The notes beneath the pieces are model-generated. The model ran no database searches, was not told the origin of the DNA, and worked only from the letters and a program-made list of their open reading frames with translations. The translations under genes were made by a program, and so were the position numbers. Positions 279 to 29,511 of a stretch of 51,098 nucleotides of DNA are shown piece after piece. Source of the stretch: Alphaproteobacteria bacterium (GTDB lineage Bacteria > Pseudomonadota > Alphaproteobacteria > Rhizobiales > Beijerinckiaceae); NCBI GenBank assembly GCA_016869435.1, contig VGEB01000009.1, forward strand, positions 1 to 51,098. Direction: 5' to 3'. Position 1 is the stretch's first letter. Each line of letters starts with the position of its first letter.

Positions 279-851
279 TTGAAAATCGTCATCGTCGACG
301 AAAGTCCTATTCGCTCCTTGATCCTGCAGGAAGGACTGCGCGAAGCCGGCTTCACGCAGGTCGAGCGCATTGGCGAAATGCATAATCTGTTGAAGCAGAT
401 TTACGCCATCGACCCCGACGTCATCCTGATCGATCTCGAAAATCCTTCGCGCGACACGCTCGAACAGATGTTTCAGGTCAGCCGCGCCGTGCGCCGGCCG
501 ATCGCAATGTTTGTCGACCAAAGCGATACGGCCTCCATTCAAGCCTCGGTCGACGCCGGCGTCTCGGCCTATATCGTCGACGGGTTGAAAAAGGAGCGCA
601 TCAAGTCGATCCTTGACTTGTGCATCTCACGCTTCGAGGCCTTCTCCAAGCTTCAGGACGATCTTGAGCGCGCCAAATCCGACCTCGAAGAGCGCAAGAC
701 GATCGAACGCGCCAAAGGCATTTTGATGAAGGCGAAGAAGCTGTCCGAAGAAGACGCCTATAAGATGATGCGCGGCGCGGCGATGCGCGAAAACAAGAAA
801 ATCATCGAAATCGCGCGCTCGGTCATCACCGCGGCGGAGATGTTCAAATGA
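279..851 (+). CDS. nasT: ANTAR-domain nitrate response regulator / antiterminator NasT
   Basis: A 190-residue protein with an N-terminal receiver-like domain (MKIVIVDESP, with DVILIDLENP near residue 48 at the phospho-acceptor position) and a C-terminal ANTAR RNA-binding domain (about residues 130-185, with IERAKGILM and EDAYKMMR). In Azotobacter and Paracoccus NasT binds the leader RNA of nitrate assimilation operons and prevents termination; NasS holds it inactive until nitrate or nitrite binds. The start is a TTG, since no in-frame ATG or GTG fits the conserved N-terminus, and there is no obvious strong Shine-Dalgarno. The stop overlaps the nasS start in an ATGA, implying translational coupling. 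The leader at 2222-2270 carries a matching RNA target. Function is inferred from domains plus the NasS neighbour and leader. Confidence 0.92.
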   Translation: MKIVIVDESPIRSLILQEGLREAGFTQVERIGEMHNLLKQIYAIDPDVILIDLENPSRDTLEQMFQVSRAVRRPIAMFVDQSDTASIQASVDAGVSAYIVDGLKKERIKSILDLCISRFEAFSKLQDDLERAKSDLEERKTIERAKGILMKAKKLSEEDAYKMMRGAAMRENKKIIEIARSVITAAEMFK

Positions 852-1996
852 GCGGCGAAGCGCATGTGAAAATCGGATTCATTCCGCTTGTCGACGCCGC
901 CGCGCTGCTGATCGCCGCGCACAAAGGATTCGTCGCGGCGGAAGGACTTGATCTCGAATTGATCCGGGAAGTGTCGTGGGCCAACATCAGAGACAAGCTG
1001 GCCATCGGCCGGTTCGATGCGGCGCATCTTCTGGCGCCGATGGCGGTCGCCTCGACTCTCGGACTGGGCCATGTGCGCGTCCCGCTCGCGGCGCCGATCA
1101 ATCTCGCGACGAATGGCAATGCGATTGCGGTGTCTATGGCGCTTTACGCGGAGCTCGCCGCCGAAGGCGAGGTCGCGCACCCGGGGCAAACCGCGCGCAC
1201 GCTGGCGACGCTCGTCGCCCGCCGCCGCGCCGAAGGGCGAGAGCCGCTGACGTTCGGCATGACCTTCCCGTTCTCCATGCATAATTATCAGCTGCGCTAT
1301 TGGATGGCGGAAGGCGGCGTCGATCCGGATGAAGATTTGCGACTGATCGCTTTGCCGCCGTCTTACATGGTGGAAAATCTCGCGCGCGGCCAGCTCGACG
1401 GATTTTGCGTCGGCGCGCCCTGGAGTTCGGTCGCGGTCGACGCCGGCGTCGGCGTCATTCTGCATTTTGGTTGCGAGATTTTCGAGCGCGCGCTGGAAAA
1501 GGTGCTCGCTCTACGCGAGAGCGTGGCCGACGAAGAGCCCGATCTTGTCGCCGCGCTGCTCCGCGCCCTCTGCAAAGGCGCCGCCTATGTCGATGCGCCG
1601 CAAAATCTGGAGGAAGTTTCGCAAATTCTCTCGCGCCCGGAATTTGTCGGCGTCGACGCCGAGATCATTCAGCGCGTGCTGACCGGCCGCCTGCGCGTCC
1701 AGGGTCCGGAGACGCGAGAGCGCGTCGATTATCTCATCATTGGCGAAGAGAGCGCGACGCGGCCCGATCCGCGCCAAGCCGAATGGATCTATGCGCAAAT
1801 GCTTCGATGGGGGCAGACGCGCTATTCCCCTGCCATGGCCGACAGGGCGAAGGGCGTCGTACGCCCCGATCTGTTCGACGCCGCCATCGGAGGCGTGCAG
1901 GTTCAACGTGAGATTAAGGCGTTCGCGGGACCGTCCTTCGACGGCCGCAGCTACGCGGATTATCTCGCCGGATTCGCGATCGGACAGCGTCTCTAG
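848..1996 (+). CDS. nasS: Nitrate/nitrite sensor NasS (NrtA/CmpA-like, cytoplasmic)
   Basis: A 382-residue member of the NrtA/CmpA family of ABC-type nitrate/bicarbonate-binding proteins. It begins VKIGFIPLVDAAALLIAAHK and contains features typical of the family (PIN-LATNGNAI, LPPSYMVENL, FCVGAPW). It has no signal peptide or lipobox: the charged segment MSGEAHVK runs straight into the first beta strand. No NrtB or NrtC permease genes are nearby. These points and the 4-base overlap with nasT argue for the soluble regulator NasS rather than a transport component. Known NasS proteins sequester NasT without nitrate or nitrite and release it when ligand binds. The following 389 bases are non-coding and contain the promoter and leader of the nas operon. 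Confidence 0.9.
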   Translation: MSGEAHVKIGFIPLVDAAALLIAAHKGFVAAEGLDLELIREVSWANIRDKLAIGRFDAAHLLAPMAVASTLGLGHVRVPLAAPINLATNGNAIAVSMALYAELAAEGEVAHPGQTARTLATLVARRRAEGREPLTFGMTFPFSMHNYQLRYWMAEGGVDPDEDLRLIALPPSYMVENLARGQLDGFCVGAPWSSVAVDAGVGVILHFGCEIFERALEKVLALRESVADEEPDLVAALLRALCKGAAYVDAPQNLEEVSQILSRPEFVGVDAEIIQRVLTGRLRVQGPETRERVDYLIIGEESATRPDPRQAEWIYAQMLRWGQTRYSPAMADRAKGVVRPDLFDAAIGGVQVQREIKAFAGPSFDGRSYADYLAGFAIGQRL

Positions 1997-2090
1997 CTTT
2001 CTGTCATGTCGCGCTTTCTATCGCCGAACCGGTTTCCACTTCGGCGGAAAGCGCTCTAAGCGCCAAACCGCTGTTCAAAAGCGCCACCCA

Positions 2091-2109
2091 TTAGGCGCCT
2101 TGCGCCTAA
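2091..2109. promoter_or_regulatory. Perfect 8-bp dyad upstream of the nas promoter, candidate activator site
   Basis: TTAGGCGC and GCGCCTAA form an exact inverted repeat around a 3-base centre, about 112-131 bases upstream of the predicted nas start site. NtrC enhancers are dyads of similar size at such distances from sigma-54 promoters, so an NtrC-type role is a reasonable guess. The bases do not closely match the classical TGCAC-N7-GTGCA consensus. It could instead be a stem-loop ending the nasTS transcript, although no T-run follows. Confidence 0.35.
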
Positions 2110-2195
2110 GCATTCGGCGCCCGAGCGCGCTGACCGCCGTCGGCTATGATGGCAGAACGTCCGTATTATCAACACGAGACTCGACTGGGCCCATC

Positions 2196-2211
2196 TGGCC
2201 CGAATCGTGCA
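2196..2211 (+). promoter_or_regulatory. Sigma-54 (RpoN) promoter of the nitrate assimilation operon
   Basis: TGGCCCG-AATC-GTGCA matches the -24/-12 consensus TGGCACG-N4-TTGCA except at two bases, with the invariant GG (2197-2198) and GC (2209-2210) exactly 10 bases apart. If C2210 is -12, transcription starts near 2222, leaving a leader of about 164 bases before the first gene. Sigma-54 control by NtrC under nitrogen limitation is usual for assimilatory nitrate operons. The element lies directly before the ANTAR target hairpins, so limitation and nitrate signals would be integrated here. Confidence 0.72.
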
Positions 2212-2221
2212 ACGCTCCTAT

Positions 2222-2270
2222 CGGTCAACGACGACCGCCGGTCCGCCGGAACGAGCCCAAGGCTGGGCTC
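2222..2270 (+). promoter_or_regulatory. Two-hairpin ANTAR (NasT) RNA target in the nas leader
   Basis: Hairpin 1 has stem CGGTC/GACCG (2222-2226 with 2233-2237) around the six-base loop AACGAC. Hairpin 2 has stem GAGCCC/GGGCTC (2253-2258 with 2265-2270) around the loop AAGGCT. They are separated by a 15-base linker. Both loops have A at position 1 and G at position 4, as described for RNAs bound by ANTAR antiterminators. Given nasT just upstream, this is very probably the NasT binding site. Hairpin 1 starts at the predicted first transcribed base, unusually close to the 5' end. Confidence 0.82.
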
Positions 2271-2385: not shown

Positions 2386-3618
2386 ATGACAGGATTGCAC
2401 CTTTTTAGCAGTCGCGAAAAGATCGTCGTCGTCGGCGCGGGCATGGCGGCGACGCGTTTCGTCGAGGAACTGACGAACCGGGCGCCGGATCGCTACGACA
2501 TCCTGGTGATCGGCGAAGAGCCACGGCTCGCCTTTAACCGCGTGCTGCTGTCGTCCGTGCTTGCCGGGGATTTGTCGGTCGATGACATCGAACTCAAACC
2601 CCGGCATTGGTGGCGCGCCGCCGGCGTCTCCACGCTAAGCGGCCGCAAGGTCGTCGGGATCGACGCCGCCGCCCGGCGCGTCGTTCTCGATAATGGAGAC
2701 AGCGTCGACTATTCGAAACTCTTGCTCGCGACGGGTTCGCAGGCGGTGAGGCTGCCGATCGAGGGCGCCGGTCTGCCCGGGGTTCACACGTTTCGCGACG
2801 TGCAGGACGTCGAGGCCCTGTCCCGGCTCGAAGGCAGAGGCGCCCGCGCGATCGTCATCGGCGGCGGCCTTCTTGGACTCGAGGCGGCCTATGGGCTGGC
2901 GCGGCGCGGCGTCGACGTGACGCTCGCCCATGTCATGGATCGGCTGATGGAGCGCCAGCTCGATGCGGCGGCCGCCGACATCCTGCGCCGCCTCGTCGAA
3001 GAGAAGGGCGTGCGGGTGCTTCTCAACGCCAATACGACCCGCATCGCCGGATCGGGCCGCGTCGAAGGCATCGAATTCGCCGACGGTCGGACGGCTCCGG
3101 CCGACGCCGTGATTTTCGCTGTCGGCATTCGGCCGAACGCCGATCTCGCGCGACAGGCCGGCCTTAACGTCGGGCGGGGCGCGATCGTCGACGACGGCCT
3201 CGAAACCAGCGAAGCGGGCGTGTTCGCCATTGGCGAATGCGCCGAACATCGTGGCGTCTGTTACGGCCTCGTCGAGCCCGCCTATGAGCAGGGACGCGCT
3301 CTCGCCATGCGCCTCGCCGGTGAAGAGGCGTCCTATTGCGGCAGCGTCGTCTCGACAAACCTCAAAGTGTCCGGCGTGAGCGTTTTCTCGGCCGGCGATT
3401 ATCTCGGCCAAGGCGATGCGCGCCGCATCGTCTGCAAGGACCCGCGCATGGGAATCTATCGCAAGCTCGTCTTGCGCAACGACAGGCTCGTGGGCGCGAT
3501 CCTGGTCGGAGACACCAGCGGGGCGGCCGATTTCCTCGATCTCATCCGCTCGGGCGCGGACATTTCGGCGATGCGCGACGATTTGATGTTCGGCGCGCCC
3601 GTCCAGAAGGCCGCCTGA
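2386..3618 (+). CDS. NirB/NasC-like FAD-NAD(P) oxidoreductase, nitrate/nitrite reductase electron-transfer subunit
   Basis: A 410-residue pyridine nucleotide-disulphide-type oxidoreductase. An FAD-binding Rossmann motif lies at residues 12-22 (KIVVVGAGMAA) and an NAD(P)-binding GxGxxG-like motif near residue 155 (AIVIGGGLLGLEA). The second FAD motif (GVFAIGECAEH) lies near residue 278, and a C-terminal reductase dimerisation domain follows. The region LAFNRVLLSSVLAG is typical of the NirB and NasB/NasC N-terminus. It stops where NirB would continue into BFD [2Fe-2S] and sirohaem domains, so it is a stand-alone flavin module; the missing [2Fe-2S] domain sits instead at the C-terminus of NasA here. 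It probably delivers NAD(P)H electrons to NasA or to the nitrite reductase. It is the first gene of the operon, one base before nirA. Confidence 0.85.
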   Translation: MTGLHLFSSREKIVVVGAGMAATRFVEELTNRAPDRYDILVIGEEPRLAFNRVLLSSVLAGDLSVDDIELKPRHWWRAAGVSTLSGRKVVGIDAAARRVVLDNGDSVDYSKLLLATGSQAVRLPIEGAGLPGVHTFRDVQDVEALSRLEGRGARAIVIGGGLLGLEAAYGLARRGVDVTLAHVMDRLMERQLDAAAADILRRLVEEKGVRVLLNANTTRIAGSGRVEGIEFADGRTAPADAVIFAVGIRPNADLARQAGLNVGRGAIVDDGLETSEAGVFAIGECAEHRGVCYGLVEPAYEQGRALAMRLAGEEASYCGSVVSTNLKVSGVSVFSAGDYLGQGDARRIVCKDPRMGIYRKLVLRNDRLVGAILVGDTSGAADFLDLIRSGADISAMRDDLMFGAPVQKAA

Positions 3619-3619
3619 C

Positions 3620-5374
3620 ATGTCCGTCGATTTCACGCTCGACCAGAAGCGCTATCTCGAAGGATTTGCGGCCGGCTTCTCCGCTCGCGGCGGACAGAAG
3701 GCGCCGCCCGCGCAAGCGCAGCCGATGGGTCCCGACGCTGCTCATTTTGCCGCGCAGGATCGCGTCGCGGCGGCCGGCGGCAAGCTGTGCGATCAGGAGA
3801 AATGGAAGCGCGAAGAGCATCCGTTCGACGCCTGGCCGCGCCTTGTTGCGCAAGCGAAGGAGAACGCGCCGCCCAAACCCGCCGACAATTTTCGCTGGCG
3901 CTTCTACGGACTCTTTTATGTCGCGCCGGCCCAGGACGCCTATATGTGCCGGCTGCGCATCCCCAATGGCGCGCTCAATCATTGGCAGTTCGCCGGCCTT
4001 GCCGATCTCGCCGAAAATTACGGAGGCGGCTATCTGCATGTGACGACGCGCGCCAACATTCAGATCCGCGAGGTCGCCCCGAAAGACGCGGCGAACATCG
4101 TCGAGGCGATTCAGGATCTGGGCCTGTGGAGCAAGGGCTCGGGCGCCGACAACATCCGCAACGTTACCGGCACGCCGACTGCCGGCGTCGACCCGCAGGA
4201 GCTCATCGATACGCGCCCCTATGCGCGGGCGATGCATCATCACATCCTCAATGATCGCTCGCTCTACGGCCTGCCGCGCAAGTTCAACATCGCCTTTGAT
4301 GGCGCCGGACTCATCGGCGCGCTGGAAGACACCAACGACATCGGCTTTCAGGCCGTCGCGGTAAAGGACGGCTGCGGCGTCGCGCCGGGCGTCTATTTCC
4401 GTCTCGCGCTCGGCGGCATTACCGGCCACAAGGACTTCGCCCGCGATACGGGCGTCATCGTGCCGCCGGAGGAGGCGGTGGAGGTCGCCGACAAGGTTCT
4501 GCGGGTCTTCATCGACCATGGCGACCGTACCAACCGCGCCAGGGCGCGCCTCAAATATGTGCTCGACGCTTTCGGCTTCGACAAATTCCTCGCCGCGGTC
4601 GAAGAAAAACTCGGCCGCAAGCTGCTTCGCGTCGACGCCGAGGCGATCGAGGCGCGTCCGCGGCAGGATCGCGCCGCCCATATCGGCGTGCATCCGCAGA
4701 AACAGGCGGGCTTCAATTGGATCGGCGTCGCTTTGCCGGTCGGTCGTTTTACCCCCGAGCAGGCGCGCGGTCTTTCGAAGATCGCGCGCCAATTCGGCGA
4801 TGGCGGATTGCGCCTCACGGTCTGGCAGAATGTGCTGATCACCGGCGTCGCCGACGAAAGCGTCGCCGGGACGGTTGCGGCGATCGAGGCGCTCGGTCTT
4901 TCGACCCAGGCCTCGCCGATTCGCACCGGGCTCGTCGCCTGCACGGGAAATTTCGGTTGTCGCTTCGCCGCCGCCGACACTAAACGGCACGCCGAAGACA
5001 TCGCGGCGCATTGCGAGGCCGCGGCGCCGATCGACACGCCGATCAACATTCATCTGACCGGCTGCCATCACTCATGCGCCCAGCATTATATCGGCGACAT
5101 CGGACTGATCGGCGCGCGCGTGCCGATCAATGACGAGGGCGACACGGTCGAGGGCTACCACATTCTCGTCGGCGGCGGCTTTGCGGAAGACGCCCGCATC
5201 GCCTCGGAGCTTCAGCAGAATGTGAAAGCGGACGAGGCGCCGGAAGCGGTGGCGAGAATTCTTCGCGCCTATCGAAAGAACCGCGCGAGCGCGGAGGAAA
5301 CTTTTGTCGCTTTCGCGCGGCGCTGTGACATCGACAGGCTGCGCGGCCTTGTGAATGAGGAGAGCGCGGCGTGA
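3620..5374 (+). CDS. nirA: Sirohaem/[4Fe-4S] assimilatory nitrite reductase, NirA type
   Basis: A 584-residue member of the nitrite/sulphite reductase family, reducing nitrite to ammonium with six electrons. It contains two ferredoxin-like halves (about residues 90-200 and 350-420) and the sirohaem-[4Fe-4S] ligand cysteines in ACTGNFGCRF (about residue 440) and TGCHHSC (about residue 481). Its length fits ferredoxin-dependent NirA rather than the roughly 800-residue NADH-dependent NirB. The N-terminus has the motif LDQKRYLEGFAAGF, which recurs in altered form in the next gene product. The ATG lies one base after the preceding stop, and the end overlaps the following gene. Nitrite reductase rather than sulphite reductase follows from its place between nas genes. 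Confidence 0.88.
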   Translation: MSVDFTLDQKRYLEGFAAGFSARGGQKAPPAQAQPMGPDAAHFAAQDRVAAAGGKLCDQEKWKREEHPFDAWPRLVAQAKENAPPKPADNFRWRFYGLFYVAPAQDAYMCRLRIPNGALNHWQFAGLADLAENYGGGYLHVTTRANIQIREVAPKDAANIVEAIQDLGLWSKGSGADNIRNVTGTPTAGVDPQELIDTRPYARAMHHHILNDRSLYGLPRKFNIAFDGAGLIGALEDTNDIGFQAVAVKDGCGVAPGVYFRLALGGITGHKDFARDTGVIVPPEEAVEVADKVLRVFIDHGDRTNRARARLKYVLDAFGFDKFLAAVEEKLGRKLLRVDAEAIEARPRQDRAAHIGVHPQKQAGFNWIGVALPVGRFTPEQARGLSKIARQFGDGGLRLTVWQNVLITGVADESVAGTVAAIEALGLSTQASPIRTGLVACTGNFGCRFAAADTKRHAEDIAAHCEAAAPIDTPINIHLTGCHHSCAQHYIGDIGLIGARVPINDEGDTVEGYHILVGGGFAEDARIASELQQNVKADEAPEAVARILRAYRKNRASAEETFVAFARRCDIDRLRGLVNEESAA

Positions 5375-6978
5375 CCCACATGTCTTCTCCGCCATTTCTC
5401 ATTCCGCCGAGCGCGCCGTTCACGCCCGAGCAGCGCGCGTGGCTCAGCGGCTTCTTTGCCGGCTTCGCCGCGCCCGATGACGGCGCCGTCACACCGCTTA
5501 CGCCTGAAGCCAACGCCGCCGTTCTGGCTCGCGCGCCGGGCGACGGCGACGATGGCGAAGCGCCCTGGCATGATCAGACGCTGGCGCTCGATGCCCGCAT
5601 GCAACTCGCCCAAGGACGGCCGCTGCGTCGTCGCATGATGGCGGCCATGGCGCAGCAGGACTGCGGCCAGTGCGGCTATAATTGCGAGACCTACGCCGAC
5701 GTGCTCGCCTCCAAGAAGGAAACGCGGCTCAATCTTTGCGCGCCCGGCGGCAAGGACACGGCGCGGATGCTGAAGGCGCTTGCAGCGGAGCTGGATGAGG
5801 CGCCGGCGCCGGCCCTTGCGCTGGCGGAGCCCGCCGTCGTCTTGGAGAGCGTTGTCGCGCCGGCGCCCGGCCGCTCGCGCGACAATCCGGTGCGTGCGAC
5901 TTTTCTGTCGCGCCGGCGCCTCAACCATGAAGGCTCGGAAAAGGACACCTGGCACATCGAATTCGACATCGGCGCGAGCGAACTCACCTACGCCGTCGGC
6001 GATAGTTTCGGCGTGTTTCCTAAGAACAGTCTCGGCCTCGTCGATCAGATCATCGCCATGCTCGGCGCCTCGCATGTGACGCCGATCAATGACAAGACTC
6101 TGCGCGACGTGTTGCTAAGCGACGTCTCGCTATCTCCGGCGCCGGATGCGCTGTTCGAATTGATCTCCTTCGTCACCGGCGGCGCGCAGCGTGATAAGGC
6201 CCGCTTGCTGGCGCAAGGCGAGGATCCTGATGGCGACGCCACAACGCTCGACGTGCTCGCCGTGCTGCAGAAATTTTCCAATGCGCGGCCCCATCCAGAG
6301 GCTTTTGTCGAAGCGCTGGAGCCGCTGCAGCCGCGGCTATACTCCATTTCGTCCTCGCCAAAGGCCTCGCCGGGACGCCTGTCGCTGACCGTCGACGCCG
6401 TTCGTTACGTGATTGGAAAGCGCAAGCGCCTCGGCGTCGCCTCGACCTTCCTCGCCGAGCGCATTGCACCGGGCGACAGAATTCCCGTCTATGTGCAGCC
6501 GGCGCATGGCTTCAGCCTGCCTGACGATCCGGCGACGCCGATCATTATGGTCGGGCCCGGCACCGGCGTCGCGCCGTTTCGCGCCTTTCTGCAGGAGCGC
6601 GCCGCGACGCATGCGAGCGGCAAAAACTGGCTCTTCTTCGGCCATCAACGCTCCGCCTGCGATTTTTTCTACGCCGATGAATTCGAAACGATGAAGGCGA
6701 CCGGCCTGCTCACTCGGCTGTCGCTCGCCTGGTCGCGCGACGGGGCGGAGAAATTCTATGTGCAGGACCGCATGGTCCAGGCCGGCCGCGAGTTATGGGC
6801 ATGGCTTGCGGAAGGCGCGCATTTCTACGTCTGTGGCGATGCTCAGCGCATGGCCAAGGATGTCGAGCGCGCGCTCGTCGACGTCGTCGCCGAATTCGGC
6901 GCCCGCGGCGCCGATGAGGCGGTCGCCTTCATCGCGCAGCTCAAAAAGAGCGGACGCTATCAACAGGATGTCTATTGA
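5371..6978 (+). CDS. CysJ-like FAD/NADPH flavoprotein with an Fe-S cysteine cluster, electron donor for the nas reductases
   Basis: A 535-residue protein built from an N-terminal segment PFTPEQRAWLSGFFAGF, a cysteine motif CGQCGYNC near residue 97 (with a further Cys near 120), and a ferredoxin-NADP reductase-like FAD/NADPH module. The last shows RLYSISSSPK near 321, the nucleotide motif GPGTGVAPFRAF near 395 and a C-terminal KSGRYQQDVY. Unlike CysJ it lacks the FMN-binding flavodoxin domain. The cysteine motif probably binds an Fe-S cluster replacing FMN. It likely passes NADPH electrons to NirA or NasA. The start used is GTG 5371, overlapping the nirA stop; ATG 5380, three codons on, is an equally good choice. 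Confidence 0.82.
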   Translation: MTHMSSPPFLIPPSAPFTPEQRAWLSGFFAGFAAPDDGAVTPLTPEANAAVLARAPGDGDDGEAPWHDQTLALDARMQLAQGRPLRRRMMAAMAQQDCGQCGYNCETYADVLASKKETRLNLCAPGGKDTARMLKALAAELDEAPAPALALAEPAVVLESVVAPAPGRSRDNPVRATFLSRRRLNHEGSEKDTWHIEFDIGASELTYAVGDSFGVFPKNSLGLVDQIIAMLGASHVTPINDKTLRDVLLSDVSLSPAPDALFELISFVTGGAQRDKARLLAQGEDPDGDATTLDVLAVLQKFSNARPHPEAFVEALEPLQPRLYSISSSPKASPGRLSLTVDAVRYVIGKRKRLGVASTFLAERIAPGDRIPVYVQPAHGFSLPDDPATPIIMVGPGTGVAPFRAFLQERAATHASGKNWLFFGHQRSACDFFYADEFETMKATGLLTRLSLAWSRDGAEKFYVQDRMVQAGRELWAWLAEGAHFYVCGDAQRMAKDVERALVDVVAEFGARGADEAVAFIAQLKKSGRYQQDVY

Positions 6979-6986
6979 GGCCGCTC

Positions 6987-9728
6987 ATGCTCGATGGAAT
7001 CCTGGCGCCGGCGCCCAACGAAAATCTGCAGGCCGATGCGTCGCCTATTCAGACGACGGCGACGCGATCGACCTGCCCCTATTGCGGCGTCGGCTGCGGC
7101 GTGCTCGCCTCGCCGGGCAAGAGCGTCAGCGGCGATCCCGCCCATCCGGCAAACTTCAGCCGACTCTGCTCCAAGGGCTCGGCGCTCGACGAAACGCTCG
7201 GGCTGGATGGGCGCCTTCTCTATCCGATGGCGCATCAGGCTAACGGCGCCTTGGCGCGGGTGAGCTGGGATGCGGCCCTGGACGAAGCCGCAGATGGCCT
7301 TCGTCGCATTATCGACCGGCACGGCCCCGACGCCGTGGCAGTCTATCTCTCGGGCCAGCTGCTGACCGAAGACTATTATGTCGCCAACAAGCTGATGAAA
7401 GGCTTCATCGGCTCCGCCAATGTCGACACCAATTCGCGATTGTGCATGGCGTCGACGGTCGCCGGCCACAAGCGCGCCTTCGGCGCCGACGTGGTGCCTG
7501 GCTGCTACGAAGACCTCGACCAAGCCGACCTTATTGTGCTCGTCGGCTCGAACGCCGCCTGGTGTCATCCGATTCTCTTTCAGCGCATCATGCGCAACAA
7601 GGAGGAGCGCGCCGCCAAGGTCGTCGTCATCGACACGCGCCGCACCGCGACGGCGGAAAGCGCCGACCTGTTCTTGCAGATCGCGCCGGGGGCGGATCAG
7701 GCGCTGTTCTGCGGCTTGCTTGTCCATCTCGCAAAGGCCGCCGCCTGCGACGATGATTACGTCCGCCGCCACACCGAAGGATTGAAAGACGCCTTGAAGG
7801 CGGCGCAGACCATCGCGCCGTCGATCGAAGCGACGGCGAGGTCGACAGGGCTGCGCGAGGTCGACATCGCGTCGTTCTTTGAAATCTTCGCGGAGACGCC
7901 GCGTACGGTGACTGCGTTCTCGCAGGGCGTCAATCAGTCGGCGCAGGGAACGGACAAGGTCAACGCGATCATCAATTGCCATCTCGCGACAGGCCGCGTC
8001 GGCAAGCCCGGCGCGTCGCCCTTCTCGCTGACCGGCCAACCCAACGCGATGGGCGGCAGAGAAGTCGGCGGGCTCGCGAACAGCCTCGCCGCGCATATGG
8101 GCTTCGACGCGGAAAGCATCGATCGGGTTCGCCGTTTCTGGAATGCGCCGCGCATCGCAAAGCGCGAAGGCCTAAAGGCGGTGCAGATTTTCGACGCCGT
8201 CGCGCGCGGCGACATCAAGGCGTTGTGGGTCGTCGGCACCAATCCCGCGGCCTCTCTTCCGAACGCCAATGCGGCGCGCGCCGCGCTCGCAAAGCTCGAA
8301 CTCTTTATCGTCTCGGACAATGTCGCGTCGAACGATACGATCAACGGCGGCGCGCATCTGCTGCTGCCGGCGCAGGCCTGGGGCGAAAAAAGCGGCACGG
8401 TGACGAATTCCGAGCGGCGCATTTCCCGTCAGCGCGCCTTCCTGCCGGCGCCAGGCGAAACCCGCGCCGACTGGTCGATTTTCGCCGGCGTCGCCCGACG
8501 GATGGGATTTGAAGGATTCGACTACCGATCATCTGCCGATGTCTTTCGCGAGCACGCCGCTCTGTCGGCGTTCGAAAATGACGGCTCGCGCGCGTTCAAC
8601 ATCTGCGGGCTGGCGAAGCTGAGCGACGCCGAATATGACGCGCTCGAGCCGACGCAATGGCCGATTCATGCGGGCGAGCGCAAGGGCCGCGCGCGCCTCT
8701 TCGCCGAAGGCGGCTTTTTCTCGAAAAACGGACGAGCGAAATTCATCGCGCCGGCGACGCCCGGCTTGGCGACTCCGCTGACGAAGGATTTCCCGCTTCG
8801 ACTCAACACCGGCCGCATCCGCGATCAATGGCACACGATGACGCGCACAGGCCTTAGCCCCCGGCTCGCGCGACATCTTGCCGAACCCTTCATCGAGATG
8901 GGCGCGTCGGACGCCGGTCGCTTTGGCGTCGAGGACGGCGAATTCGCGCGCGTCGCCACGCCCTATGGCGATTGCGTGCTGCGCGCGGTCGTGACCGATC
9001 GTCAGCCGCCCGGGCATATTTTCGCGCCGATCCACTGGACCGATGAAACCGCCGCCGCCGCGCGCGTTGGAGGGCTCGTCGCGCCATTCCTCGATCCGTT
9101 CTCCGGGCAGCCTGAATCCAAGGCGACGCCAGCGGTCGTGACGCCGGTGCGCTTTGCGCGTCAGGGCTTCGTGCTTTCCCGTAAGCCGATGGCGTTGCGC
9201 GAAGGCCTGTGGTGGACACGGGTCGCCGTCGCGAAAGGCTTTGGCTATCGCGTCGCCGGCGATCTGCAAGATGGCGATTGGGCGGACATTATCCGCGCCG
9301 CTACGGCGAGCGACGACGTCATCCAGTTCATCGACGAAACGAGGAGCCTTTTGTCCGGCGCCGCCTTCGTCGACGACCGGGCGACTCTCATCTGGGCGCT
9401 TGCGCCGTATGCGCCGCCTTGGGAGCTCGCGCTCGAACTCTTCGCCCGCGAAGGTCTCGCTCGATCTGAGCGCCTGTCGCTCCTGTCCGGTCGATCGGGA
9501 CGACAGATCGCGAATGACGGCCCGCTCATCTGCTCATGCTTCGGCGTTGGGCAGAAGAAAATCGAAGCGGCGATCGCACAAGGGTGTCGCACCGCGCCCG
9601 AAGTCGGCAAGGCGACGCGCGCCGGCTCCAATTGCGGCGGATGTCGGCCGGAAATCGAACGTCTCATCAAGGCTTTTCTCGCCGTCGCGCCGTCGGCGAA
9701 TGGGATGACAGCGACGCAACACGCATAA
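6987..9728 (+). CDS. nasA: Assimilatory nitrate reductase catalytic subunit NasA
   Basis: A 913-residue molybdopterin oxidoreductase of the cytoplasmic NasA/NarB group, reducing nitrate to nitrite. An N-terminal [4Fe-4S] motif CPYCGVGC starts near residue 29, with the fourth ligand in RLCSKGSAL. Bis-MGD-binding regions follow (LTGQPNAMGGREVGGLAN, WVVGTNPAAS). A molydopterin dinucleotide-binding domain lies near residue 600 (NTGRIRDQWHTMTRTG). A BFD-like [2Fe-2S] domain occupies about residues 845-895 (ICSCFGVG and SNCGGCRPE). There is no twin-arginine signal, as expected for an assimilatory enzyme. I chose ATG 6987, preceded by GAGG at 6977-6980, over the TTG at 6975 that overlaps the previous stop. 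Confidence 0.95.
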   Translation: MLDGILAPAPNENLQADASPIQTTATRSTCPYCGVGCGVLASPGKSVSGDPAHPANFSRLCSKGSALDETLGLDGRLLYPMAHQANGALARVSWDAALDEAADGLRRIIDRHGPDAVAVYLSGQLLTEDYYVANKLMKGFIGSANVDTNSRLCMASTVAGHKRAFGADVVPGCYEDLDQADLIVLVGSNAAWCHPILFQRIMRNKEERAAKVVVIDTRRTATAESADLFLQIAPGADQALFCGLLVHLAKAAACDDDYVRRHTEGLKDALKAAQTIAPSIEATARSTGLREVDIASFFEIFAETPRTVTAFSQGVNQSAQGTDKVNAIINCHLATGRVGKPGASPFSLTGQPNAMGGREVGGLANSLAAHMGFDAESIDRVRRFWNAPRIAKREGLKAVQIFDAVARGDIKALWVVGTNPAASLPNANAARAALAKLELFIVSDNVASNDTINGGAHLLLPAQAWGEKSGTVTNSERRISRQRAFLPAPGETRADWSIFAGVARRMGFEGFDYRSSADVFREHAALSAFENDGSRAFNICGLAKLSDAEYDALEPTQWPIHAGERKGRARLFAEGGFFSKNGRAKFIAPATPGLATPLTKDFPLRLNTGRIRDQWHTMTRTGLSPRLARHLAEPFIEMGASDAGRFGVEDGEFARVATPYGDCVLRAVVTDRQPPGHIFAPIHWTDETAAAARVGGLVAPFLDPFSGQPESKATPAVVTPVRFARQGFVLSRKPMALREGLWWTRVAVAKGFGYRVAGDLQDGDWADIIRAATASDDVIQFIDETRSLLSGAAFVDDRATLIWALAPYAPPWELALELFAREGLARSERLSLLSGRSGRQIANDGPLICSCFGVGQKKIEAAIAQGCRTAPEVGKATRAGSNCGGCRPEIERLIKAFLAVAPSANGMTATQHA

Positions 9729-9746: not shown

Positions 9747-11009
9747 ATGAAACTCGCGGATTTCAAGAAGGCTGGTCATTGGCCCACGCTGCTTGCGGCC
9801 TTCCTTTACTTTGATGTCAGCTTCATGGCTTGGGTCTCACTCGGGCCGCTGATGATTTACATCGCCAAGGACATGCCGATTTCGGTCGAGGACAAGATCT
9901 CGCTGGTCGCCATTCCTGTTCTGGGCGGGGCGTTTTTCCGCGTGCCGCTGGGACTGCTGGCGGACGCGATCGGCCCGAAGATGACGGGCATCCTCGCGCA
10001 GGCGGTCGTGATGTTCGCCGTATCTCTCGTGTGCGTCTTTGGACTGACAAGTTCGATCGCGATCGCGCTTTTCGGTCTTTCGCTCGGAATCGCCGGCGCT
10101 TCCTTCGCCGTCGCGCTGCCGCAGGCCGGCCGTTGGTATCCGCCGCAATATCAGGGTCTGGTGATGGGAATCGCGGGCGCCGGCAATATGGGCGTGGTGC
10201 TCGACACGCTGTTCGCGCCGTCGATCGCCGAGGCGTTTGGCTGGCGCACGGTCTATGGCGTTCTGCTGGCCTTGATGGTTCTCGTGCTCCTTATCTATTC
10301 ATTGGCCGCCAAGGATGCGCCCGGCGCCAAAACCAAGACTGACTTTTCCGGCTATGGCAGAATGCTTGCGGACTCGGACAGCCGCTGGTTCATGTTCTTC
10401 TACTTCATCACCTTCGGCGGCTTTGTCGGTCTCGCCTCGGCGCTTCCGCTCTATTTCACGACGCAATATCACGCGACCGGAGTCGCCGCCGGTTTAATGG
10501 TTGCGCTGATCGTCGCCTTCGGCTCTGGATTCAGGCCGGTCGGCGGCTATATCGCTGACCGCATCGGCGGGGTGAAGGCCTTGTCCTTCCTCTTCCTTAT
10601 CGTCGCCGCCTGCTATTTCGCCGTCGCCTTTCTTCCGGCCGGACCGGCTCCGGCGAAGGGCGTCGCGGGTTGGAACCTGATGCAGCTGCCGCCCGTCGCC
10701 TTTGCGGCGGTGGCGCTGTTCTCCATCGGCGTGCTGTCGCTGGGCATGGGCAATGGCGCGGTGTTCCAGCTGCTGCCGCAGCGCTTCCGCCGCGAGATCG
10801 GCGCGATGACCGGGCTTGTCGGCGCGGCAGGCGGATTCGGCGGATTCTTCCTCGCCAAGACTCTCGCCCTGTCCAAGGGAGCGACCGGCGGCTTTACGGC
10901 CGGCTTCGTGTTCTTCGGTTTCCTTGCGCTGCTAGGTCTCGTAGGTTTGATTTTCGTGAAAACGCGCTGGCGCACGACCTGGGGCGCCGTTTCCGGCGCG
11001 CGAATCTGA
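9747..11009 (+). CDS. NarK/NrtP-type nitrate/nitrite transporter (MFS)
   Basis: A 420-residue major facilitator with about 12 hydrophobic segments. Nitrate-porter features are visible: RVPLGLLADAIGPK after helix 2, GIAGAGNMGVVLDT in helix 5 (nitrate signature) and GSGFRPVGGYIADRIGG in the second half. It imports nitrate or exports nitrite at the inner membrane and replaces an NrtABC system, which is absent. A strong AAGGAG lies 8 bases before the ATG. It sits 18 bases after nasA in the same operon. Confidence 0.93.
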   Translation: MKLADFKKAGHWPTLLAAFLYFDVSFMAWVSLGPLMIYIAKDMPISVEDKISLVAIPVLGGAFFRVPLGLLADAIGPKMTGILAQAVVMFAVSLVCVFGLTSSIAIALFGLSLGIAGASFAVALPQAGRWYPPQYQGLVMGIAGAGNMGVVLDTLFAPSIAEAFGWRTVYGVLLALMVLVLLIYSLAAKDAPGAKTKTDFSGYGRMLADSDSRWFMFFYFITFGGFVGLASALPLYFTTQYHATGVAAGLMVALIVAFGSGFRPVGGYIADRIGGVKALSFLFLIVAACYFAVAFLPAGPAPAKGVAGWNLMQLPPVAFAAVALFSIGVLSLGMGNGAVFQLLPQRFRREIGAMTGLVGAAGGFGGFFLAKTLALSKGATGGFTAGFVFFGFLALLGLVGLIFVKTRWRTTWGAVSGARI

Positions 11010-11021
11010 GAATGAGAAGCT

Positions 11022-12731
11022 TTGGTGTCGGTCCGCGTCGTTCATGATTTGCAGGTCGAAGCGGGCTTTGCGACGCAAAAGGGCCGGCGCCCCGACAATC
11101 AGGACTATGTCGCGCTTAGCTTCGGTCCGAGCGGCGCCGGCGCCTTGCAGGGCGTCGTCGCCGCCGTCGCTGACGGCGTCGGCGGTCACAAGGGCGGACG
11201 CGCGGCTGCCGAGACCTCAGTGCGCGCGTTCATCGACGGCTATTATGCGCAGCCCGAGACTTTGGGCGTCGCTCGGGCCGCCGCCCGCTCGCTCGAAGCG
11301 GCGAACGGCTGGATCGCGGCCCAGTCGCGAGTCGACCCTGCTTTGGAAGGGATGGCGACGACATTCAGCGCGCTGATCCTGTCGCGCAGAAACGCCTTCA
11401 TCCTTCATGTCGGCGACACACGCATCTATCGGCTCGCCGGCGACGGCCTCGAAAGATTGACCAAGGATCACACCTTTGGTCGGGGCGATTTCGCGCATGT
11501 GCTGCGCCGCGCCGTGGGTTTCGAGGATTCGCTTTTATTCGATCACGGGCTGCATAATCTCAATCTCCATGATCGATTTCTGCTGTGTTCTGACGGCGTC
11601 CACGGCGTATTGCCCGACGAGCGGCTTGGCGCGCTTCTGGCCGAACGGCGCGCGCCGCAGGAAACCTCCGAGAGCATCGTCGAGGCGGCGCTGGAGATGG
11701 GCAGCAATGACAATGTCACCGCGCTTGTCGTCGACGTCGTCGACGTGCCGCCCGCCGACGAGCGCGCCTTGTCGCGCGCTTTTGCAGGTCTGCCCATTCG
11801 CGAATTGCCGTCGATCGGAGACATTGTCGACGATTTTCGAATTGACGCGCTTCTCTCCGAAGGCCGTTACAGCCGATTGATGCGGGCCACCGATCAGGAC
11901 AGCGGAAAAGCAGTCGTGCTGAAGTTTCCGCATCCGCGCGTCGCCGACGACGCCTCCTATCGCATGGCCTTCGTCAACGAAGCCTGGGTGGCGGCGCGGG
12001 TGAGAAGTCCGTTCGTAGGCGAAGTGATCGAACTGCTTCCGGGCCGACAAAGCCGGCTTTATTCCGTGATGCCCTATTATGATGGCGAAACGCTGGAACG
12101 CCGGCTGCGCCGCGAACCGCGAGTCGATCTTGCGGAAGGCGTCTCGATCGCTGCGCGCCTGTCGCGCGCCATCGCGACCTTGCATCGCTGCGGCATCATC
12201 CATCGCGATATCAAGCCCGAGAACGTCATCCTGCTCAAGGACGGCGGGCTGCGGCTTGTCGATCTTGGCGTCTGCCGCGCGTCGAATCTCGAGAATTTGC
12301 CGGAAGCGCATGCGCCCGGCACGCCGAGCTACATGGCTCCGGAGCTTTTCGACGGCGCCGCCGGCGACGAAGCGTCAGACCTTTTCGCGTTCGGGGTGAC
12401 GGTTTATCGCATGTTCAGCCGCAGCTATCCTTACGGCGAAATCGAGCCCTTCAGCAGGCCGCGCTTCACGAAACCCCTGCCGCTCGCGCAAAAGAGGCCC
12501 GACCTTCCGGCGTGGCTCGACGCGGCGATCCTTAAGGCGATCGGCGTGCAGCCAGGCGACCGTTTCGGCGACGTGTTGGAATTCGCCTTCGAACTCGAAA
12601 ATGGCTCGGCGCGCGCGCAGCCGCTGACGCTGCACAAGAAGTCGCTCTACGAACGCAACCCGGTCATTTTCTGGCAGACGCTCTGCTTGTTGCTCGCGCT
12701 TCTGTTGGCGATTTCCGTCTTCCATCGATAG
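11022..12731 (+). CDS. Bifunctional PP2C-type phosphatase / Ser-Thr protein kinase with C-terminal membrane anchor
   Basis: A 569-residue fusion. Residues 1-245 form a PP2C phosphatase, with RRPDNQDYV, the metal motif DGVGGHKGG near residue 51, HVGDTRIYRL, and GSNDNVTALVVDV. Residues 270-530 form a protein kinase, with the catalytic loop HRDIKPENV near residue 394 and a VDLG sequence where DFG is usual, followed by an APE-like MAPELF. The C-terminus carries one transmembrane helix (FWQTLCLLLALLLAISVF). Such fusions recur at the end of proteobacterial nas operons, but the substrate is unknown; NarK or the reductases are possible. The start is TTG 11022 or GTG 11025, 13-16 bases after the transporter stop, with GAGAAG upstream. 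Confidence 0.88.
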   Translation: MVSVRVVHDLQVEAGFATQKGRRPDNQDYVALSFGPSGAGALQGVVAAVADGVGGHKGGRAAAETSVRAFIDGYYAQPETLGVARAAARSLEAANGWIAAQSRVDPALEGMATTFSALILSRRNAFILHVGDTRIYRLAGDGLERLTKDHTFGRGDFAHVLRRAVGFEDSLLFDHGLHNLNLHDRFLLCSDGVHGVLPDERLGALLAERRAPQETSESIVEAALEMGSNDNVTALVVDVVDVPPADERALSRAFAGLPIRELPSIGDIVDDFRIDALLSEGRYSRLMRATDQDSGKAVVLKFPHPRVADDASYRMAFVNEAWVAARVRSPFVGEVIELLPGRQSRLYSVMPYYDGETLERRLRREPRVDLAEGVSIAARLSRAIATLHRCGIIHRDIKPENVILLKDGGLRLVDLGVCRASNLENLPEAHAPGTPSYMAPELFDGAAGDEASDLFAFGVTVYRMFSRSYPYGEIEPFSRPRFTKPLPLAQKRPDLPAWLDAAILKAIGVQPGDRFGDVLEFAFELENGSARAQPLTLHKKSLYERNPVIFWQTLCLLLALLLAISVFHR

Positions 12732-28359: not shown

Positions 28360-29511
28360 ATGTCATCCTATTCTGAATTGAGCGCCGAGCAGGAGGCCAT
28401 CCGCGAGATGGCGCGAGACTTTGGGCGCGACCGCCTCGCGCCCTTTGCGCTCGATTGGGACCGCGAGCATGTCTTCCCGGTCGACACCCTACGCGACGCC
28501 GCGGCGCTGGGCATGGCTGGAATCAATGTGCGGGAGGCGTCAGGCGGCGCCGGACTGACGCGTCTTGACGGCGTGCTGATCTTCGAGGCGCTCGCCATGG
28601 GCTGCCCGACGATCGCCGCCTACCTCTCGATTCACAACATGTGCGCGACTCTGATCGACGCTTTCGGGAGTGAGCGTCAGATTGACAAATGGCTGCCGAA
28701 GCTCGTGACGATGGAGCTTCTATCGAGCTACTGCCTGACGGAATCCGGTAGCGGATCGGATGCGGCGGCGCTGCGCATGCATGCGACGCATAGCGGCGAT
28801 CACTACGTCTTGAACGGCGCCAAACAATTCATTTCGGGCGCCGGGGCGGGCGGCGACGATCACCTCTATGTCGTCATGGCGCGAACCGGCGAGCCGGGCC
28901 CGAAAGGCATATCGGCTTTCGTCGTCGAAGGCGGAACGCCGGGTTTGAGTTTCGGCGCGATCGAGCGAAAAATGGGGTGGAACGCCCAGCCGACGCGCGT
29001 CGTCATCTTCGACGACTGCCGCGTGCCTGCCGAAAATCTTATCGGACGCGCGGGCGACGGGTTCAAGATCGCGATGGCTGCGCTGGACGGCGGCCGTCTC
29101 AACATCGCCGCCTGTTCGCTCGGCGGCGCGCAGTCGGCCTTCGATCACGCGCTGCGCTACATGAGCGGCCGCAAAGCGTTCGGTCGCGCGCTCGACGAAT
29201 TCCAGGCGCTGCAGTTCCGGCTCGCCGACATGGCCACGCAGCTTGAAGTCTCGCGCACCTTTCTGTGGCGGGCGGCGGCGGCGCTCGACGGCAAGGCCCC
29301 CGGGGCCACGACTTTATGCGCCATGGCGAAGCGCGTCGTCACCGACGCCGGCTTTGCGGTCGCCAATGAAGCATTGCAGCTTCACGGCGGCTATGGCTAC
29401 TTAAGCGAATATGGAATCGAAAAGATCGTTCGCGATTTGCGCGTTCATCAGATTCTCGAAGGAACGAATGAAATCATGCGCGTCATCATCGCGCGATCGT
29501 TCTTGACGTAG
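28360..29511 (+). CDS. Isobutyryl-CoA dehydrogenase
   Basis: A 383-residue acyl-CoA dehydrogenase, with YCLTESGSGSDAAALRM, GAKQFISGAGAGGDDHLYVV, LHGGYGYLSEYGIEKIVRDL and catalytic Glu in the C-terminal LEGTNEIMRVII. The Ala/Gly-rich GAGAGGDDHLY and the short acyl pocket residues fit the isobutyryl-CoA group, and it is followed by 3-hydroxyisobutyryl-CoA hydrolase. It converts isobutyryl-CoA to methacrylyl-CoA in valine degradation. The chosen ATG 28360 gives the usual short leader MSSYSELS; an upstream extension would overlap the lyase gene. Confidence 0.88.
   Translation: MSSYSELSAEQEAIREMARDFGRDRLAPFALDWDREHVFPVDTLRDAAALGMAGINVREASGGAGLTRLDGVLIFEALAMGCPTIAAYLSIHNMCATLIDAFGSERQIDKWLPKLVTMELLSSYCLTESGSGSDAAALRMHATHSGDHYVLNGAKQFISGAGAGGDDHLYVVMARTGEPGPKGISAFVVEGGTPGLSFGAIERKMGWNAQPTRVVIFDDCRVPAENLIGRAGDGFKIAMAALDGGRLNIAACSLGGAQSAFDHALRYMSGRKAFGRALDEFQALQFRLADMATQLEVSRTFLWRAAAALDGKAPGATTLCAMAKRVVTDAGFAVANEALQLHGGYGYLSEYGIEKIVRDLRVHQILEGTNEIMRVIIARSFLT

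Follow-up and report, generated by a model that had tools for sequence, protein, structure and literature searches.

How might a NasT protein control a nitrate operon whose leader RNA carries the two hairpins such proteins bind and no terminator that a simple scan can find? This question is raised by a 51,098-nucleotide stretch of DNA (the window), the start of contig C9 (VGEB01000009.1) of the 3.16-Mb genome of a methane-oxidizing bacterium of the family Beijerinckiaceae, in which nasT and nasS are followed by a leader and, from position 2386, by nitrate assimilation genes. A first-pass annotation had read a control circuit here, consisting of overlapping nasT and nasS genes, a sigma-54 promoter, and an RNA target of two hexaloop hairpins, and had proposed that nitrogen limitation and nitrate signals meet in this one leader. 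The genes do overlap (279 to 851 and 848 to 1996), and the combination of promoter, NasST, and two-hexaloop part is a known arrangement. What is new is the extended leader. The annotation had followed the target up to 2270; the conserved element continues to 2386, pointing to the translation start rather than to a terminator, and is best read from its sequence as a predicted NasT-operated translational switch. All features below lie on the forward strand, except for one unstranded palindrome.

The target comprises P1 (CGGTC-AACGAC-GACCG, 2222 to 2237, loop 2227 to 2232) and P2 (GAGCCC-AAGGCT-GGGCTC, 2253 to 2270, loop 2259 to 2264, AAGGCU in the RNA). Both loops have A in position 1 and G in position 4 (A1/G4), as the annotation had noted, and together they satisfy the ANTAR dual-hairpin motif. 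As a chance count, we searched both strands of the window for A1/G4 hexaloop hairpins with stems of at least 5 pairs and at most one G-T pair. There were 42 (20 and 22 per strand), and two pairs of them lay 3 to 40 nucleotides apart, P1-P2 and another at 29324 to 29384. Given this second pair, the occurrence of P1 beside P2 could by itself be due to chance, and we judged the target real because of its conservation in an alignment of 17 leaders, that of the window and those of 16 relatives from its genus. P1 was present in all 17, and the first base of the P2 loop was G in two (G035 and G036). Among 34 leaders inspected, P1 kept A1 and G4 in 34 and P2 kept G4 in 34 but A1 in only 30, G1 occurring in G035, G036, G009, and G024; these loops are part of the models by which the leaders were found, and in divergent leaders the hairpins were chosen by eye. 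The conservation of loop bases that the annotation looked for thus held for P1 and for G4 of P2, and partly for A1 of P2. In the P2 loops GAAGTA and GACGAT (L157, L158, L161, and L162), G replaces the reportedly important A1 and G4 stays. No Rfam family matched the window at its gathering score, and between 2000 and 2450 there was only a sub-threshold match to RF02600, on the minus strand.

The sigma-54 -24/-12 element TGGCCCGAATCGTGCA (TGGCCCG-AATC-GTGCA, 2196 to 2211), of the form GG-N10-GC, lies where the annotation had placed it and is kept by every one of the 17 leaders in the alignment. A gap of 10 to 12 bases separates P1 from the C of the -12 GC in 10 of 10 leaders of the wider set; in a second count it was 11 to 12 bases in 7 of 7 leaders, 3 of which carry GG-N10-GT instead of GC. 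From this spacing, P1 should form the 5′ end of the transcript, and the promoter geometry does not point to a start downstream of 2240, which the annotation had listed as counting against its circuit. The genome encodes RpoN and a clear NtrC (705 bits against a cutoff of 558.6), so that motif, sigma factor, and activator are all found and the element reads as a predicted sigma-54 promoter. A palindromic block at 2091 to 2121, about 100 to 130 bp 5′ of the predicted start and strongly conserved in the alignment of 17 leaders, is a possible activator site of the NtrC type.

The alignment contains a second strongly conserved block, which reaches the start codon (2386) and can pair with the first; the strands concerned can be arranged in two ways. 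In one arrangement, H1 pairs CGGUCCG (2239 to 2245), in the linker between P1 and P2, with CGGACCG (2354 to 2360), and H2 pairs GUCACAG (2272 to 2278) with CUGUGAC (2347 to 2353), enclosing P3a and P3b, the latter formed by the complementary strands 2308 to 2319 and 2336 to 2347. In the other, the linker folds as the hairpin PL (CCGG-UCCG-CCGG, 2238 to 2249), which excludes H1, and the P3b 5′ strand takes P1 as its alternative partner (H3, or anti-P1). This strand complements the 3′ half of P1 in 9 of 9 leaders, and formation of H3 would destroy P1 and P3b together. The second arrangement also contains a ribosome-binding site (RBS) hairpin, S, made of helix H4 and the apical hairpin B* (2343 to 2381). 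In its 5′ arm (2343 to 2359), the last bases of the 3′ strand of P3b are followed by the 3′ strand of H2 and by most of that of H1, and its 3′ arm (2364 to 2381) overlies the predicted Shine-Dalgarno sequence AGAG (2375 to 2378). Through these shared strands P1, P3b, H2, and H1 are incompatible with H3, PL, B*, and H4. Up to 2386, the leader has the look of an RNA with two states, a predicted ribosome-site hairpin and a mutually exclusive alternative fold, both of them conserved.

The helices change on both sides in related leaders. The H1 strands differ yet stay complementary in G118, G033, G024, and G229, with UCCAUCGG/CCGAUGGA in G118, GGUUCC/GGAACC in G033, and GGUCCC/GGGACC in G024. H2 reads GUCACAA/UUGUGAC in G013 and GUCACGG/CCGUGAC in G164, and the ribosome-site helix reads CCCCGU/ACGGGG in G118 and ACCCCU/AGGGGU in G423. 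We compared the pairing of a leader's own strands with pairing across leaders, with P1, P2, and the start codon as reference points for locating the strands, in 9 and later in 16 leaders; the set of 16 excludes near-copies (G203, G061, and the close relatives except the window) and retains the borderline G653 (E = 0.0098). With 16 leaders, own pairing exceeded cross pairing for H1 (p = 0.0035), H2 (0.0006), H4 (0.00015), B* (0.0005), PL (0.00045), P3b (0.007), P1 (0.002), and P2 (0.00005). As far as sequence can tell, the annotation's other condition for rejecting its circuit, stems or loop bases that are not conserved in close relatives, was not borne out. Shuffling within families gave 0.014 for H1, 0.0015 for H2, 0.006 for H4, 0.001 for B*, 0.0035 for PL, and 0.044 for P3b. 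Seven strand combinations without predicted pairing gave p values of 0.25 to 0.93 in the 16 leaders.

As further controls, the same geometries were moved over neighboring and coding sequence, giving 43 local and 38 long-range tiles. H1 and H2 did better than 38 of 38 long-range tiles (best 0.0059) and H4 better than 43 of 43 local ones (best 0.0003), and B* and PL each surpassed 42 of the 43. The H4 geometry gave p values of 0.87 at 15 nasT starts and 0.58 within the first gene, and the B* geometry gave 0.39 at the nasT starts. Judged by sequence comparison, evolutionary support extends beyond P1, P2, and the promoter to H1, H2, PL, B*, H4, and P3b; for H3 there is conserved complementarity alone, which was better than dinucleotide-shuffled partners at p ≤ 0.03 in 7 of 9 leaders. 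A structure-fitted alignment, which is not our main evidence, had 96.3% of its cells paired and two-sided changes in 20 of 44 pairs.

The element is not peculiar to the window. Covariance model R1, built from 15 close relatives, was used within the genus, where it detected divergent members, and R2 and then R3 (from alignment A7 plus G229, G203, and G164) extended the search to other genera and to a second family; a strict two-hairpin A1/G4 scan misses relatives with shorter stems. The leader element was found by covariance model search in 23 of 39 genomes of the genus. Over 298 genomes of the family, R2 gave any match at E ≤ 0.1 in 31, including genomes absent from the model (G229, E = 1e-20; G203, 2e-19; G164, 5e-9; G118, 2e-5). 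R3 found G356 in the family and G707, G681, G637, G423, G557, and G653 in another family of the order, all seven likewise absent from the models until then; the genomes with a match at E ≤ 0.01 numbered 28 among 397 of the family and 8 among 397 of the order, the latter count including the window's own genome and G009. The leaders of the second family stand 5′ of nrtA-like genes, so the element is not bound to one gene. The genome from which the window comes has no clear match besides this leader, the runner-up having an E value of 0.69. Not counted as members were L172 (within coding sequence), L173, L174 to L179, a G331 match without a locus, L142, L194, eight matches with E ≥ 0.15, L054 (E = 0.01), and the five weakest matches of the search that gave the leader of Methylocystis rosea SV97. 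A second match in G029 (707 to 791; L116, contig C164, about 549 to 791) is the leader copied around N, read as a scaffold-join artifact, and was dropped. On contig C2 of G009 (L161/L166) the leader precedes NirB-like and nitrate-reductase-like genes and nasST lies on another contig, with a transposase-like open frame, recognized by eye, after nasS.

The leader is probably a NasT-operated translational switch that works without antitermination. We infer NasT binding, the fold that NasT would favor, and the effect on translation, as follows. Under nitrogen shortage, the NtrC/RpoN-type promoter would start the RNA at P1. Without nitrate, NasS would hold NasT and strand 2308 to 2319 would capture P1 as H3; the linker would fold on itself as PL, the RBS hairpin (2343 to 2381) would mask the ribosome region, and the operon would stay untranslated. 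With nitrate, freed NasT would clamp P1 and P2 and block H3. Strand 2308 to 2319 could then pair with 2336 to 2347 as P3b, and H2 and H1 would zip; with their 5′-arm partner strands consumed by P3b, H2, and H1, the RBS hairpin would open and the ribosome site would be exposed. The RBS hairpin hides at least half of the predicted Shine-Dalgarno pairs in 19 of 19 leaders, in a prediction that used an assumed 16S tail.

A number of results weigh against this reading. The permutation p values are inflated by kinship: among the control tiles, 6 of the 43 local ones and 5 of the 38 long-range ones fell below 0.05. One local tile at -330, 5′ of the promoter in the window, reached 0.0003 (0.0004 in another run); it lies close to the conserved palindrome, and this nearness may be the reason. 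H3 showed no covariation with either 9 or 16 leaders (p = 0.16 to 0.24), its strands hardly varying and so giving no signal. In dinucleotide shuffles the RBS hairpin scored below 0.05 in 4 of 9 leaders and H2 in 3 of 9, and H1 reached p ≤ 0.05 in 2 of 9. Neither H1 (p = 0.59) nor the RBS hairpin (0.41) outdid shuffles in the window alone, and the case therefore depends on the comparison between leaders. The model alignment spans just 94 nucleotides of G118 and 68 of G653, whose H1 and RBS helices were assigned by position and duplex scoring instead. When P1 and P2 were held in equilibrium folding, exposure of the ribosome site rose in 9 of 19 leaders and fell in 5 (mean 0.37 to 0.40); the 5′ arm left the ribosome site in the window (0.11 to 0.02), G035 (0.69 to 0.11), and G013 (0.18 to 0.01) and shifted toward it in 4 of 19. 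The ensemble free energy of the OFF state lay below that of the ON state in 19 of 19 leaders, a biased comparison in which ON was defined by forbidding all ribosome-site pairing. Equilibrium folding is thus equivocal and leaves the polarity of the predicted switch unfixed. The U runs considered next also count on this side.

In classical ANTAR antitermination, NasT bound to P1-P2 would prevent a leader terminator, and the RBS hairpin would be a U-poor or Rho-assisted terminator. NasR and NasT systems are described in this way in the available text of the literature, a masked ribosome site would also favor Rho-dependent loss of the RNA, and in the same genus the L026 leader, 5′ of an nrtA-like gene, shows by eye P1, P2, a GCCGCTG/CAGCGGC stem, and eight T, a stem and T run absent from the output of the terminator scan (loops of up to 8 allowed). 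In the window, a simple scan of 1900 to 2600 with the same loop limit gave 0 intrinsic terminators, on which intrinsic termination was rejected at this level, and the terminator overlapping P2 that is expected of ANTAR antiterminator leaders was likewise missing from that scan. None of the 17 leaders in the alignment has a U run directly 3′ of the RBS hairpin, though the window has TTTTT at 2402 to 2406, inside the first gene and about 20 nucleotides beyond the hairpin. In G423 and G557, to which the rejection does not extend, the apical stem is succeeded by a short run of U; because of these runs termination is only partly excluded. What is conserved is the pairing over the ribosome site, and we consider antitermination an unlikely account of this leader. 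This leader (L026/L135) thus has the classical form by eye, two hexaloop hairpins with an overlapping stem and a T run, and both leader designs seem to be present in one genus.

The folded leader could also be real and NasT favor the opposite fold, or act on RNA stability. Besides the unfixed polarity just mentioned, H1 and PL both contact the P1-P2 linker, so that NasT could favor either. In the available literature, however, nas genes are under positive control by NasT, and since H3 destroys P1, clamping of P1 should oppose the H3 fold; we regard this alternative as rather improbable. Finally, the conserved block might be coding sequence or DNA sites and its folds a by-product of high G+C, local complementarity being common at such G+C and shuffled partners often pairing equally well. 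In three close relatives, however, the distance from P1 to the start codon is 164, 165, and 166, which shifts the frame, and the window has no in-frame start codon between a stop at 2350 and 2386; the block is thus not coding, and reading it as such was rejected. Compensating changes seen in several lineages, and in both families, together with control placements that were mostly negative, make this last explanation scarcely credible. A translational switch operated by NasT remains our preferred reading.

The surrounding genes fit a nitrate assimilation locus. NasT (279 to 851, 190 amino acids, TTG start) has a receiver (PF00072, 36.8 bits) and, C-terminal to it, an ANTAR domain (PF03861, 66.6 bits), both above their cutoffs; the solved relatives 6wsh and 1s8n span nearly the whole protein and 4akk its ANTAR part. 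It is the only ANTAR match of the genome at E ≤ 0.001, and is 97% identical to NasT of Methylocystis sp. B8, 94% to that of sp. H62, and 93% to that of M. rosea SV97, a named isolate in which the same leader is present. Methylocystis belongs to the order Hyphomicrobiales. NasS (848 to 1996, 382 amino acids, PF13379 [NMT1_2] 241.7 bits) overlaps nasT by 4 bases. Its best solved relatives are the regulatory domains of NrtC/CmpC-type subunits, followed by NrtA, and with this NrtA/NMT1-like fold and its coupling to nasT it has the marks of a sensor and is predicted to bind nitrate. The first gene of the operon (2386 to 3618, 410 amino acids), whose start codon would be the controlled one, encodes the NADH/flavin adenine dinucleotide (FAD) half of a NirB-type nitrite reductase, matching TIGR02374 with 404 bits over its N-terminal half and not reaching the whole-protein cutoff of 578. 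It is followed by a NirA-family nitrite/sulfite reductase (3620 to 5374; NF007126, 995.6 bits, cutoff 523), a reductase subunit like the sulfite reductase flavoprotein (5371 to 6978; NF004859, 870.9 bits, cutoff 432), and a molybdopterin oxidoreductase that is probably the assimilatory nitrate reductase (6975 to 9728; PF00384, PF01568, and PF04324), which scored below cutoff with every NCBIfam model for nitrate reductase (NasC, 382 against 1100 bits). A NarK-type nitrate/nitrite transporter (9747 to 11009; TIGR00886, 234.4 bits, under the cutoff of 311.7) comes next, and 3′ of it lies a fusion of PP2C phosphatase and protein kinase (11022 to 12731, 569 amino acids).

How the leader relates to known systems bears on what is new in it. 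In Klebsiella, according to the available text of PMC5424462, nitrate assimilation is under NtrA/NtrB/NtrC control plus NasR antitermination, and the nas leader is similar to ours in joining Ntr-controlled initiation to an ANTAR protein acting on the two-hexaloop leader of a nitrate operon. Of the first-pass annotation's circuit, the NasS-NasT pair, the conserved target, and the sigma-54 type promoter, with RpoN and NtrC in the genome, are supported; the joining of Ntr and nitrate control is not new in kind. Klebsiella differs in that NasR itself senses nitrate and in an intrinsic terminator in the leader, where our scan found none. In Paracoccus denitrificans, NasS holds NasT without nitrate (PMC3795266), the sensor/antiterminator pair likewise lies 5′ of nitrate assimilation genes, and NasT binds the nasA leader (HI and HII). 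In the available text, however, the mechanism is transcription antitermination, NtrC acts on nasT expression, and no switch of the H1/H2/RBS-hairpin kind is described. NasT hairpins also occur in nitrogen gene leaders of Bradyrhizobium diazoefficiens (nosR and nirA), as here, although the accounts available describe nosR as terminator control; expression of narK-bjgb-flp rose in a Bradyrhizobium nasT mutant, by the same partial accounts.

Leaders of the Bradyrhizobium nirA type (L042 to L110, for example L048) contain 51 hairpins of the form CAGC-AACGNN-GCTG, and a GGAG ribosome-site pattern follows 38 of them. The site is GGAGCTTCG in 37 of these cases, complementary to the hairpin loop and 3′ arm and 66 to 98 nucleotides away. 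These sites hardly vary, and there is therefore no covariation test for them. They look like a simpler version of the ribosome-site switch, in which one hexaloop hairpin would be directly complementary to the site. We give about an even chance to the broader proposition that ANTAR proteins naturally govern translation initiation, with a conserved NasT-operated ribosome-site switch in Hyphomicrobiales before nitrite/nitrate reductase or nitrate uptake genes and its simpler hexaloop version in Bradyrhizobium nirA leaders.

PAL, too, contains an ANTAR domain. The NmPAL light switches (PMC11381354) share the idea of controlling ribosome access but, in the available text, are engineered, whereas the leader described here is natural and conserved across genera. 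In the text available of Ramesh et al. (2012), about 30% of the matches in organisms with ANTAR genes overlap a terminator and others may act on translation; the putative translational element of their Figure S3, an unverified example, resembles our leader in that an RNA-binding protein would govern ribosome access. Among the matches listed from the open-license literature we found no natural, tested case of translational control by an ANTAR protein or NasT, which is not proof of absence, and no study that by its title treats a NasT/NasST circuit in Methylocystis or other methanotrophs.

If our reading is true, the question of Ramesh et al. (2012) about ANTAR targets without terminators would become directly testable. 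The test RNA would be about 165 nucleotides long and would start where the promoter sets it; its alternative helices are specified, compensating variants of it occur in nature, and the isolate SV97 carries the same leader. Most descriptions of NasT relatives have them preventing a premature end of transcription, whereas here the control would fall on the start of the ribosome, and in methanotrophs one short RNA could combine the signals of nitrogen limitation and nitrate.

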